A DNA stretch of 32,536 bases from a virus: IMG/VR virus record IMGVR_UViG_3300043444_000270, positions 1 to 32,536 of that record, one strand, 5' to 3'. Every line of letters starts with the position of its first letter. Within the stretch, counting starts at the first letter, position 1. Positions 9,421 through 29,171 of the stretch are shown one piece after another. Below the pieces are notes generated by a model. It was given only the letters and a program-made list of their open reading frames with translations. It did not search any database and was not told the origin of the DNA. A program made the translations under genes and the position numbers.

Positions 9421-10593
9421 TTAGCTCGCGCCGCCCTTGAAATATCCAATGTGAGTAGCGTGGGTTAGTCCACCGTCTAGTCGCATAGTTCCGCGGAAGG
9501 TTGTTGTGTCTGCGTTGAATGCATAGTCTGCTGAAGTAGCAACTTGGATTCCACCAGCAACGCGTACCTTGTATGAAGGTAGGTGACCGAAGATTACAGA
9601 CTTTGCACCAGTCGCAACTGCCGGAACTGAGCTGTTCTCGAACACAGAGTATCCAAGAAGAGTTGCAGCCTGACCAGGAACAGCAGAGTCAGTCCAGATG
9701 TAGTTTCCTGCACCATCCTTCATCTTGCGAGCAGCAGCAATACCAGTCTTTGACATCTGGAAACCTAGACCTGGAAGTACGCGAGCGCCATCAGCGATTC
9801 CGTAGACTAGATCGACCAGATTTTCAAAACTCGCGGCCCCAGACACTCCGGTGCCACCGGTTACAACTGAACCAGCAGAGGTTACAACACCAGTAGGCTG
9901 AACAGTTCCAGTACCAGTTGTTAGCAATGCGTTTGCCTGGTAACCAAGTGACTGACCCAACTGCTCTGCAATGTAAGCGTTGATGTCGAATCCTGCATCT
10001 GCAATTAGCTCATTAGCAACTGAAACCAAAGCACCAATCTTAAATGCACCTAGTGAAATGCTTGAGAAGGTTGGGTTTGACTCTGAGATTGCTGAACCTG
10101 CTGAAGTAACAGCAGCAGTTGAGTAAGCAGTAACAGTTGGAATAACTAGAGTTTCACCAGAAGCGGTGTTGAATACTTCTGAGGTGTTTAGCATTGGGCC
10201 GATTAGGCGAGCAACACCAAATACCTGGTCATAGAAAGACTGACCAACAGTGTTTGCCGATGGCACAAGCGCCGCGCGTGATTCGCGGTTGAACTCATGT
10301 GAGCGAACTTCACCGCGAGCAATTGCGCGGATTAGGTCTGCATCGGTTGATGGAGCAGTTGCAGGTGTGAAAGAAGCAGCAGCCTCAGTTGCCTGAGCAG
10401 CGCGCTCTTCTACACGCTTTGCAGTTTCGATTGAAGCGTCACGCTGAGCAATGTCAGCCTCTAGGCGCTCAATCTTGGTTAGTTCTTCAGCTGAAAGTCC
10501 GCGAGCCTCGGTCTGAGCAAAGTCAATGACTTCGCGCATCTGAGCAACTAGGTTGTTGCGAACCTCTGCCTGTGACTTGATGAAGTCAGACAT
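9421..10593 (-). CDS. Major capsid protein, HK97 fold
   Basis: 390 residues. Residues 1-75 form a charged coiled coil (scaffolding delta-domain: SAEELTKIERLEADIAQRD). A linker follows, then the mature HK97-fold body from about residue 105 (AALVPSANTVGQSFYDQVFG), with a typical GALVSVANELIADAGFDINA spine region and a GHLPSYKVRVAGGIQVATSA C-terminal part. The delta-domain should be removed by the protease encoded upstream. RBS AAAGGA lies 8 bases before ATG. The capsid gene is set apart by its own promoter and by hairpins on both sides, fitting its need for high expression. Confidence 0.93.
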   Translation of the reverse strand: MSDFIKSQAEVRNNLVAQMREVIDFAQTEARGLSAEELTKIERLEADIAQRDASIETAKRVEERAAQATEAAASFTPATAPSTDADLIRAIARGEVRSHEFNRESRAALVPSANTVGQSFYDQVFGVARLIGPMLNTSEVFNTASGETLVIPTVTAYSTAAVTSAGSAISESNPTFSSISLGAFKIGALVSVANELIADAGFDINAYIAEQLGQSLGYQANALLTTGTGTVQPTGVVTSAGSVVTGGTGVSGAASFENLVDLVYGIADGARVLPGLGFQMSKTGIAAARKMKDGAGNYIWTDSAVPGQAATLLGYSVFENSSVPAVATGAKSVIFGHLPSYKVRVAGGIQVATSADYAFNADTTTFRGTMRLDGGLTHATHIGYFKGGAS

Positions 10594-10627: not shown

Positions 10628-10667
10628 GCCGAGCAAACTCTGAACAGACTAGAGGCCGAGCAAACTC
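10628..10667. repeat. 13-bp direct repeat in capsid leader
   Basis: GCCGAGCAAACTC occurs at 10628-10640 and again at 10655-10667, 27 bases apart start to start, with further weak similarity after each copy. Both lie in the expected 5' leader of the capsid mRNA, between the -10 box at 10682-10687 and the RBS. Possible protein- or RNA-binding sites; no known motif recognised. Confidence 0.6.
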
Positions 10668-10681
10668 AGAACCTAGTAGCA

Positions 10682-10711
10682 ATTCTACCAAAGGTATGTA
10701 AAACAAGTTAA
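10682..10711 (-). promoter_or_regulatory. Predicted sigma70-type promoter for the capsid gene
   Basis: On the minus strand TTAACT (10711-10706, 4 of 6 to consensus), an 18-base spacer and TAGAAT (10687-10682, 5 of 6). The start would fall near 10675, leaving a leader of about 80 bases that holds the 13-bp repeats and the capsid RBS. It lies downstream of a strong terminator, so an independent start is needed for the capsid gene. Confidence 0.5.
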
Positions 10712-10774: not shown

Positions 10775-10853
10775 TGGACTATCAGGGAGTCGCACCCTGC
10801 TCCCAAGTGTTCGGATTTACCGGCTTGCACTTGGTCGAAACTATCTATAGCCC
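10775..10853 (-). ncRNA. tRNA-like RNA resembling the tRNA-like domain of tmRNA, without a reading frame
   Basis: Read on the minus strand from 10853: GGGCTAT pairs with ATAGTCC (10782-10776) as a 7-bp acceptor whose third pair is G.U, followed by A as discriminator; G3.U70 plus A73 is the alanine identity set kept in tmRNA. The 13-base D-loop region holds GTTTCGAC (10841-10834), the string found at this place in tmRNA, with no D-stem. A T-arm follows: CAGGG-TGCGACT-CCCTG (10799-10783). Between them is a 7-bp P2-like helix, CCAAGTG with CACTTGG, capped by CGG-TAAAT-CCG. There is no anticodon arm, no mRNA-like domain and no encoded CCA. Deviation: T-loop has TGCGA where TTCGA is usual. Could also be a decayed tmRNA. 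Confidence 0.6.
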
Positions 10854-10932: not shown

Positions 10933-10964
10933 ACCCCCGACTGGAAAGGGGGTCAGTCGGGGGT
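10933..10964 (-). terminator. Rho-independent terminator upstream of the capsid region
   Basis: ACCCCCGACTG and CAGTCGGGGGT form a perfect 11-bp GC-rich stem with a 10-base loop. In the minus-strand sense it is followed by TTTCGC. It lies 20 bases past the stop of the 58-residue gene and should stop most transcripts of the packaging/protease operon before the tRNA-like element and capsid gene. Confidence 0.8.
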
Positions 10965-10984: not shown

Positions 10985-11161
10985 TTAGCGAGTTTCTTTT
11001 ACTTCAGCCACTCGGGTTTCGGTGACCGGTGTAAAGCTCTTGGCTTCTTTGGCAGGAGCGTTTAGCAAGTCTAGCAGTTCTTTGATTGCGCCGGTGGTTG
11101 GATCACCAGATACTTCTTTTACTACCTTGATTGCTGTAGCAATTTCATCTTTAGTTGGCAT
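10985..11161 (-). CDS. Small acidic/basic helical protein, unknown
   Basis: 58 residues, starting at an ATG that overlaps the protease stop as TAATG. Sequence begins MPTKDEIATAIKVVKEVSGD, then has a TGAIKELLDLLNAPAKEAKS helix and a Thr/Val/Glu-rich tail. Highly charged and soluble, probably helical. It is the last gene before a strong terminator. Position between protease and capsid genes is where scaffold-like or head-accessory proteins may sit, but nothing in it proves that. Confidence 0.65.
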   Translation of the reverse strand: MPTKDEIATAIKVVKEVSGDPTTGAIKELLDLLNAPAKEAKSFTPVTETRVAEVKETR

Positions 11162-12732
11162 TAGTTTCCCATCATTAGTAGAGCGAGTTTTTTCTGCTTG
11201 AGAGCAAGAATGTCACCCTCAACTTCTTGAACCTCTGGGGTCTTGGTTAGTTTGCCAATGACATCGGCTACAAGTGCGCCTTGCTCTGGTTCTAGTTCTT
11301 CGCCTGACTCAATCTTTAGCAGGGCATCGGCTAGAGCATCGGCTGAGATGCCTTCGATTGAGCGAACTGCTACTGTTCCAGCGGTTGCTTCATAGGCTGG
11401 TGTTGAAACTAGGCTGACCTCATAAAGTGAAACATCTTCTAGGTAGCGAGTGTTGCCATCCTTAGACCAAGAGTCTTTTTTGACTGAGAAACCAAAGCTC
11501 ATTGAGTCCACAACACCGGTGCGAACTAACTCGGCAATGTCGCGACCTAGAGTTGTGTCTGGCAGGGTTGCGGTGACCTTTAGGCCTCGAGCATCTTCAG
11601 CCAACTGGAGTGATCCGTTGCGAGTTGAAGCAAGAGGGTTTGAGGTGTCATGATTCCACAAGAGCATCATGCGGTTGCGAGATTGTAGGCTTCGCTTGAA
11701 AGCGCCAGGCTTTACATACTCGGTGAAAGGAAGCGGAAGGCTTGGCTGGTCAAATAGAGCGGCATAGCCGGTGAAAGAGCGACCATCACCCTCGGCGCGT
11801 AGTTCGATGTGGTTGGTGCGAACCTCATTCTTGCCAATGGCTCGAGCTTCCTCTGTGCCTTCTAGTTTGGCTTTGATAGCATAAGCAACCTTGAGCCACT
11901 TGGCTCTAGATTCATCCATCACTTCTTCAGTCATTCGGCTACTTTCTTCTTCTGCTCTAATTCTAGCAACAACAGATTCCGCATAGTCTAGGGCTCTTTG
12001 CGCTGCTCGCTTTGATGGGCCTGAACCCCAAAGTAGATGTGCGACAACACCGGCACTCGGATAGTTGTCTGAGGCTGGGTCTGCATCTGGAGAATCAAGG
12101 TCATCTAGGTGGCGAGCAATCCAAGCGGCAATGCGAATCCACTTGTCATCGCTAACTGTTCCATCAGCCATCTCTCGGGCCTCTCGGATAGTGCGCTCAA
12201 CAAGGCCATCTCCACCTAGACCATCAGCGTAATACTCAAGGCCTCGGCGAGCTGCTGCTCTCATGTAAGCAGGTGCTTCTTGGTTGATTGCTCTATCTTC
12301 TTCTAGGACTGGCAACTCAGGTTCATCCATAGACTCATCTGGCTGGTCAGGTTCTTCTACTTCCTCGGCTACCATCTCTGGTCGCTGGATTCGCTCCAAC
12401 TTGAAAACATTTAGAATCATCATCTTGTCTGTTGATGTAAAGATTCCATCCTCAAACTCATAAAGGCGGATGACCGCATACTCGCCTTGAACCATAACAA
12501 TCTCAGCAAGAATCTTTGGGTCTAGAACATTCCAAGAAACATAATCGCCAACATTCAGCGAGTCAATCGCCGCGCGCTCACCTTCAAAAGGCTCATCATC
12601 TGAAATAGAGATAGCAACTGCCTGATCAATGGCCGATTCCTTTGTTGTGTGACAACCGTAGTATCCGTCACCGTCATCAACAACAGCCCAGCCTGAGCAT
12701 TCAGGATTTTTATCTGTAATGTAATAAGGCAT
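11161..12732 (-). CDS. Prohead maturation protease with N-terminal extension
   Basis: 523 residues. From about 300 to 480 it is an HK97-type prohead protease (U35): RSFTGYAALFDQPS, MMLLWNHDTSNPLAS with the catalytic-type His, DSMSFGFSVKKDSW with the nucleophile-type Ser, and YEVSLVSTPAY. Residues 1-110 hold a small N-domain (CSGWAVVDDGDGYYGCHTTK) and an SH3-like stretch around VGDYVSWNVLDPK. Residues 145-265 are a helical domain with WIRIAAWIARHLDDLDS. The fused extensions exceed the usual protease length and are seen in some actinophages. It should cut the capsid delta-domain. RBS AGGA before the ATG. Confidence 0.88.
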   Translation of the reverse strand: MPYYITDKNPECSGWAVVDDGDGYYGCHTTKESAIDQAVAISISDDEPFEGERAAIDSLNVGDYVSWNVLDPKILAEIVMVQGEYAVIRLYEFEDGIFTSTDKMMILNVFKLERIQRPEMVAEEVEEPDQPDESMDEPELPVLEEDRAINQEAPAYMRAAARRGLEYYADGLGGDGLVERTIREAREMADGTVSDDKWIRIAAWIARHLDDLDSPDADPASDNYPSAGVVAHLLWGSGPSKRAAQRALDYAESVVARIRAEEESSRMTEEVMDESRAKWLKVAYAIKAKLEGTEEARAIGKNEVRTNHIELRAEGDGRSFTGYAALFDQPSLPLPFTEYVKPGAFKRSLQSRNRMMLLWNHDTSNPLASTRNGSLQLAEDARGLKVTATLPDTTLGRDIAELVRTGVVDSMSFGFSVKKDSWSKDGNTRYLEDVSLYEVSLVSTPAYEATAGTVAVRSIEGISADALADALLKIESGEELEPEQGALVADVIGKLTKTPEVQEVEGDILALKQKKLALLMMGN

Positions 12733-28814: not shown

Positions 28815-29171
28815 ATGAGCAATAAAGTTCAAAAAGCACAGATGGCTTTAGCTGATGCACTTGCAAAGTTAGAATCTGGCCCACAATGCGCTGACCCTCA
28901 GTATTCTGAGATGTTCTTTGTCGAGCCTATTTTTGAAGATGACAAACTAAGTCAGGCTCAAATACAGCGGAAACTTAGGCAAGATGAGATTGATGCCAAA
29001 CTCATTTGCGACTTCTGCCCTGTAAAGACCTTATGCGCTGAGTATGCGATTCTGGCACATGAGCCTTATGGAATTTGGGGTGCAACAACACCGGCAGAGC
29101 GCAAACTTATTTCTTCTTTTTCAAAATCCAATAAGCCTGGACTGTCAAAAGCCACACAATTGTTCGATTGA
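28815..29171 (+). CDS. whiB: WhiB-family iron-sulfur regulator
   Basis: 118 residues and the only plus-strand gene. Cysteines C25, C65, C68 and C74 give the C-xn-C-x2-C-x5-C pattern that binds a 4Fe-4S cluster, and YGIWGATTPAER (85-96) carries the G-[IV]-W-G turn. RBS AAAGG lies upstream. WhiB proteins are actinobacterial and bind sigma factor domain 4; phage copies such as TM4 WhiBTM4 down-regulate host genes (known). The 40-residue spacing between C25 and C65 is long. It converges on the lysis operon, with 7 bases between stops. Confidence 0.9.
   Translation: MSNKVQKAQMALADALAKLESGPQCADPQYSEMFFVEPIFEDDKLSQAQIQRKLRQDEIDAKLICDFCPVKTLCAEYAILAHEPYGIWGATTPAERKLISSFSKSNKPGLSKATQLFD

Follow-up and report, generated by a model that had tools for sequence, protein, structure and literature searches.

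What is the small element that sits just ahead of the major capsid gene in this viral contig, and what might a phage do with it? The window, by which we mean the whole 32,536-nt stretch analysed (IMG/VR record IMGVR_UViG_3300043444_000270), belongs to a tailed phage with genes for terminase, portal, head maturation protease and major head protein. An initial annotation had placed at positions 10775-10853 a 79-nt tRNA-like domain (TLD) of the tmRNA type with no mRNA domain, about 180 bases before the capsid gene, without stating its strand. We find every part that it listed on the minus strand, running 5' to 3' from 10853 to 10775, with the ATG of the capsid gene 181 nt further on. This is the coding strand of nearly all genes in the contig. 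The major capsid protein gene lies downstream of the element (9421-10593, minus strand; PHROG 10 major head protein, 7.3e-57) and the head maturation protease gene upstream (11161-12732, minus strand; PHROG 80, 3.5e-67), an order kept in the relatives that carry the element.

The minus-strand sequence can be written as GGGCTAT-AGATA-GTTTCGA-CCAAGTG-CAAGCCGGTAAATCCGAA-CACTTGG-GAG-CAGGG-TGCGACT-CCCTG-ATAGTCC-A. GGGCUAU (10847-10853) pairs with AUAGUCC (10776-10782) in a 7-bp acceptor stem whose third pair is, as proposed, a G·U: G3 at 10851 and U70 at 10778. The discriminator A73 follows (10775), and CCA is not encoded, the next bases being CTA. Within the stem come a stemless D-loop, AGAUA-GUUUCGA, with A18 and G19 (10835-10846), whose string GTTTCGAC is of the tmRNA type and is also found in host tmRNAs; a P2 helix made of CCAAGUG (10828-10834) and CACUUGG (10803-10809); a three-base linker from P2 to the T-arm, GAG here (10800-10802), where most members, like host tmRNAs, have GAC; and a T-arm, CAGGG-UGCGACU-CCCUG (10783-10799). 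P2 is closed by a 3-bp inner hairpin, CGG-UAAAU-CCG (10812-10822; element positions 32-34 with 40-42), which occupies the site where a tmRNA has its messenger and pseudoknot portion. The resume codon, tag frame with stop and pseudoknots that mark a complete tmRNA are absent from these 79 nt, as are the D-stem and the anticodon arm with 7-nt loop that mark an ordinary tRNA.

On the minus strand, both the minimum free energy fold and the centroid are the TLD structure (-27.8 kcal/mol; z -2.37; equalled by 4 of 200 shuffles), including the stemless D-loop, the P2 helix with its short hairpin and the CAGGG/CCCTG T-arm that had been described, and the fold is kept when the entire 379-nt leader is folded. 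The plus strand does not give the TLD structure (z -1.04). A single fold is weak evidence; the strong evidence is that of relatives.

We gathered relatives from IMG/VR by pattern scans and by a search of capsid neighbours, and the counts that follow are biased toward the patterns used. Among 80 capsid relatives examined, the element was found in a handful of loci, several loci being too short upstream to tell; these include divergent copies at the same site in contigs L033, L039 and L040, and a covariance model added a copy in L023. As most of the 80 loci have no copy, synteny with the capsid gene would by itself have been misleading. A pattern specific to the window's clade found 12 contigs. 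Two looser patterns, which fixed the D-loop, linker, T-loop and U70-C-C-A73 and left the 5' acceptor strand free, found at least 120 contigs and 79 contigs, respectively, with the full structure in nearly all of the first-pattern contigs listed and over half of the second-pattern contigs. For the first pattern, a handful of chance matches would be expected on a uniform-composition estimate with an assumed collection size. When the looser-pattern matches and the earlier loci were passed through a structural descriptor, at least 180 loci, representing at least 126 distinct sequences, were retained. An intergenic region in L017 was considered as a decayed copy, and its alignment was unconvincing. 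One phage contig, L135, holds two TLD-like copies on its plus strand (5-81 and 1317-1392); the T-loop of the first, GGCAGTA, is aberrant.

A BLAST search of the 131-nt region against phage records returned only a T-arm-like match to a tRNA-Lys of an Erwinia/Salmonella phage. Cultured phages nonetheless carry the element: in the Pontimonas phage phiPsal1 it lies at the same site, with a different acceptor stem in which G3·U70 is kept. It is unannotated in phiPsal1, in the Streptomyces phages LuckySocke, BRock, Shaeky and Riptide, and in the Stenotrophomonas phage Jojan60; in the Streptomyces phages it lies among tRNA genes. In Streptomyces phage GiJojo (PP725410, 17025-17102) it is covered by gene 44, which is annotated as a 'hypothetical protein' and may be a spurious ORF call. 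A scan of bacterial genomes gave 55 matches; of these, 10 pass a permissive structural filter and some 8 look real; many of the others resemble the 3' ends of ordinary tmRNAs and were set aside. In several bacterial genomes with the element the neighbouring genes are phage genes, and 7 of the 8 bacterial genomes carrying it encode in addition a tmRNA of full length, tag frame included. The element occurs mainly in phages and phage-like regions, with hosts keeping a normal tmRNA where this can be checked. The family is tied to Actinomycetes, Acidimicrobiia, Gamma- and Betaproteobacteria, cyanobacteria, Bacteroidota and Bacillota. In one Prochlorococcus single-cell contig (L319), a Pistol ribozyme (1621-1716; 54.8 bits, above the Rfam cut-off) lies about 2.2 kb from the TLD-only element.

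The initial annotation had named compensatory changes as the thing to look for, and they occur across relatives in P2, the inner hairpin, the acceptor and the T-arm. In the window's clade, represented by seven distinct sequences, 100% of 154 cells are paired and 12 of 22 pairs show double changes. None of 500 shuffles did as well on pairing, on pairs changed on both sides, on cells changed on both sides or on covariation score, and the clade's covariation is far above that of slid controls; on a fifth measure, further pair types, 81 of 500 shuffles reach the real value. Among the 126 distinct elements listed, P2 positions 1-8 pair in 100, 100, 99, 93, 93, 89, 82 and 73%, against 38-86% when shuffled. 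The inner hairpin covaries as CGG/CCG, CCC/GGG and CUC/GAG.

G3·U70 together with GTTTCGA(C/T) is present in all 180 pattern or descriptor matches listed. The search patterns included U70 and A73 but not G3, and position 3 is G in 180/180 loci listed, though A would pair equally well. The pair is also present with A73 in 12/12 members that came from a model, from their position or from BLAST rather than from a U70-requiring pattern, and the expected conservation of the D-loop string and the G·U pair was in this way borne out. The linker is GAC in 123 and GAG in 3 of the 126 distinct elements listed, with GAC/GAG built into most search patterns. Directly after the discriminator, 168 of the 180 element loci listed have a C, although full CCA is encoded in only 52; in the L033 clade the element is followed by CC, with full CCA in most copies. 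Among the copies listed, G55 occurs with A18 in 6/6 phage copies and U55 with G18 in 116/123, a D18-T55 covariation which suggests that the elbow forms. This also bears on the T-loop TGCGA, which had been flagged as deviating from TTCGA. It does differ, but it is not anomalous: in addition to the G55-A18 association, UGCGA is found in a full-length tmRNA from a Bacillota MAG (L365), in which, as in the window, an A precedes the D-loop G. The data show a TLD of the alanine type whose fold is maintained by selection.

tmRNA homology was examined with covariance models. R1, a covariance model trained on the window's clade alone, and a second model, R2, give the window copy 96.6 and 75.5 bits, respectively, the training sets of both containing that copy. 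As the initial annotation had suggested that such a custom model might, R1 recovers relatives from phage contigs: L123 at 87 bits, phiPsal1 at 46.7 and about 90 more members at 33-77, with ordinary tRNAs at 27 or below. Two R2 matches at 43 bits, L391 and L392, were set aside; L391 resembles a tmRNA 3' end. A search with the Rfam tmRNA model (RF00023, cut-off 47 bits), also suggested, succeeded for relatives and failed for the window copy. L123 scores 51 bits, phiPsal1 54.6, Shaeky 59, LuckySocke 57 and members in bacterial genomes 54-68. In L123, phiPsal1, Shaeky, LuckySocke, L331, L319 and L337 the match runs from one end of the model to the other, the middle of the model being absent (51-68 bits). 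The window copy itself has no RF00023 match in the Rfam search and is not recognised by ARAGORN; its tmRNA membership is based on R1, R2 and the shared anatomy.

Full-length host tmRNAs show the same signature of stemless D-loop (G[U/A]UUCGAC), P2 helix, GAC-type linker and T-arm. Host tmRNAs and the elements mostly have in common the D-loop GGUUUCGAC, the linker GGAC, the T-loop UUCGANU and U70CCA, with stems that differ. A degenerate or unusual ordinary tRNA that lacks a D-arm would also be tRNA-sized with a tRNA-like acceptor and T-arm; however, the tRNA model gives L033 16 bits against the 51-68 bits of relatives with RF00023, no 7-nt anticodon loop is present, and the GAC linker and D-loop match full tmRNAs, making this account highly improbable. 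All of the at least 126 distinct elements lack a messenger domain, their P2 ending in 3-4 bp topped by a short loop, and an Ala-Ala-stop string is absent from 125 of the 126 distinct elements listed and present in one. We are close to certain that the element is a phage RNA with the identity of the tmRNA tRNA-like domain.

A phage could also hold tmRNA sequence for a trivial reason. tmRNA genes are frequent phage integration sites, and the element might be a functionless attP relic of such a gene in the host. In mycobacteriophages, partial matches to the 3' end do fit the use of tmRNA as attB (PMC10865867). An attP, however, consists of the 3' end only, whereas the elements have both halves, which covary and are unlike host sequence, and the window's nearest relatives have the element in the head-gene region. 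We consider this origin scarcely credible, ruled out by compensatory evolution over at least 126 distinct copies.

The position ahead of the capsid gene suggests another role, control of capsid expression, which the initial annotation had offered among its options. As a cis-acting leader, the tRNA-like fold would control capsid expression or set the 5' end of the capsid mRNA through RNase P or RNase Z. The placement does recur: the element precedes a major capsid gene in the window, in phiPsal1 and in roughly twelve further loci; counted as the first substantial ORF downstream, such a gene is found in the window and in no fewer than twelve others. A terminator scan found no intrinsic terminator between the window element and the capsid gene, which would suit a leader. 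A promoter-like site, TTAACT-18-TAGAAT (10682-10711, minus strand), lies between the two by its match to the consensus, and TAGAAT is also seen in relatives L002, L003 and L033. Upstream of the element, a terminator-like hairpin (10934-10963, minus strand), recognised by sequence and fold and not flagged by a simple terminator scan, closes a small gene (58-aa frame, 10985-11161).

As a general function, capsid control does not hold up. Many members precede DnaB-like helicase, primase, terminase, portal or RecE genes, and tRNA genes lie within 3 kb of the element in 19/84 loci. In L023 the order is terminator, element, terminator, ahead of a capsid promoter, with the element's own terminator 12 nt past its end; by these flanking signals, the L023 copy is a separate transcription unit, a predicted RNA gene of its own. 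Close relatives can have a capsid gene and no element: the capsid proteins of L002 and L003 are 95-96% identical, yet both contigs lack the element together with about 200 nt of surrounding sequence, so it is accessory and dispensable. A regulator, moreover, would not need G3·U70 and A73. We judge leader control quite unlikely, and both it and the attP remnant were rejected as general explanations.

The capsid mRNA leader does hold a separate candidate signal. At 10629-10669 (minus strand) there are twin short hairpins, CTGAGTTTGCTCGG and CAGAGTTTGCTCGG, about 25 nt apart, which are also found in the leaders of relatives and of phiPsal1; over 56 distinct leaders, the middle stem pair is mostly T-A, C-G or A-T (129/137 matches). 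These hairpins are possibly a conserved regulatory element of the capsid leader.

The window also gives an indication of its host. It encodes a WhiB-like transcription factor (28815-29171, plus strand; Pfam, 1.9e-12), and its closest cultured capsid match is that of Pontimonas phage phiPsal1 (50% identity), which together make an actinobacterial host likely.

What, then, would such an RNA do? G3·U70 and A73 direct alanyl-tRNA synthetase (AlaRS). Our proposal is a decoy: a stand-alone RNA that would engage the AlaRS, EF-Tu and SmpB of the host, so that trans-translation is blocked or diverted. To this reading we give a probability of about 0.6. The RNA would be trimmed like a tRNA, host enzymes would add CCA and alanine, and the product would bind host SmpB and EF-Tu and so compete with or divert host trans-translation. 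It might do so by titrating SmpB; alternatively, the alanyl-TLD·SmpB complex might enter a stalled ribosome with no frame to resume on, leaving nascent chains untagged for destruction. The eight phage records that we searched (the window and seven cultured phages with the element) have no SmpB gene, so host SmpB would be needed.

Published work makes such a decoy plausible. Nearly all tmRNA partners bind the TLD, and in a crystal structure alanyl-TLD·SmpB·EF-Tu sits on a stalled ribosome, which shows that a TLD by itself can reach that site (PMC3968760). That TLD (4ABR) is a laboratory construct, sufficient alone for SmpB, EF-Tu and A-site binding, of which the phage RNA would be the natural counterpart. 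The initial annotation had held reduced tmRNAs without a reading frame to be known only from mitochondria; this was too narrow, as two plastids have them and so does Mycobacterium phage DS6A, whose 'TLD only' tmRNA is cited from Mao et al. 2009 in PMC4131195 and PMC11915505. According to these two accounts, a DS6A-type molecule strongly inhibits tmRNA in E. coli, whether chargeable or not, perhaps via SmpB titration.

The Streptomyces phage Riptide (PV654398) encodes both a TLD-only element (83298-83374) and a full-length tmRNA (94862-95130), which is unexpected for a plain inhibitor and for which we kept a second reading. Here the charged TLD and host SmpB would take over the nascent chain and free the ribosome without a proteolysis mark, supporting phage protein output. 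The recurrent placement before capsid genes would suit such a role late in infection. We know of no step by which the ribosome would be released without a stop codon, which counts against this tag-less rescue. Frame-less mitochondrial tmRNAs do persist together with SmpB (PMC11915505), while the reported inhibition of tmRNA by a DS6A-type RNA, as given in PMC4131195, argues the other way. On balance we regard tag-less rescue as unlikely, if still worth weighing beside the decoy.

The TLD-only kind of tmRNA is already known, from one named phage. Like the window element, the DS6A tmRNA is described as phage-borne, with little beyond the TLD and no tag frame; by description, the window differs in its UGCGA T-loop, GAG linker and pre-capsid site. 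The frame-less tmRNAs of mitochondria and plastids (jakobids, oomycetes, Mallomonadaceae) likewise have a TLD without a coding part, but they come mostly from permuted genes, whereas the phage elements have standard gene order. Of sequences without a coding part, 72 are permuted and 9 standard, the latter being listed as 'standard, no CDS' among the 97,179 sequences of a curated database of tmRNAs (PMC11915505). Full-length bacterial and phage tmRNAs (RF00023; Phabba, Riptide) share with the elements the acceptor G3·U70, A73, the stemless D-loop GGUUUCGAC, the GAC linker and the T-arm; the elements differ in lacking pseudoknots, resume codon and tag frame, in a P2 with a 3-4 bp hairpin, and in size (about 79 nt against 230-400 nt). 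What appear to be new are how large and how widely spread the family is, its repeated occurrence ahead of capsid genes, the predicted stand-alone transcription unit of one copy and its omission from the annotated records examined, with at least 126 distinct copies here against the one named phage example, DS6A, in the literature.

It is about an even bet, in our estimate, that phages of many bacterial phyla have a dedicated RNA of about 79 nt, a gene family of its own, that would take over SmpB, AlaRS and EF-Tu by mimicry as an anti-trans-translation system, expressed together with late genes in many lineages. Its presence across many phages that are not related to one another suggests a widespread and nearly unnoticed route by which phages interfere with, or tap, host ribosome rescue. 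Given at least 126 distinct copies against 9 database forms, interference with ribosome rescue, or use of it, may be a common phage tactic.
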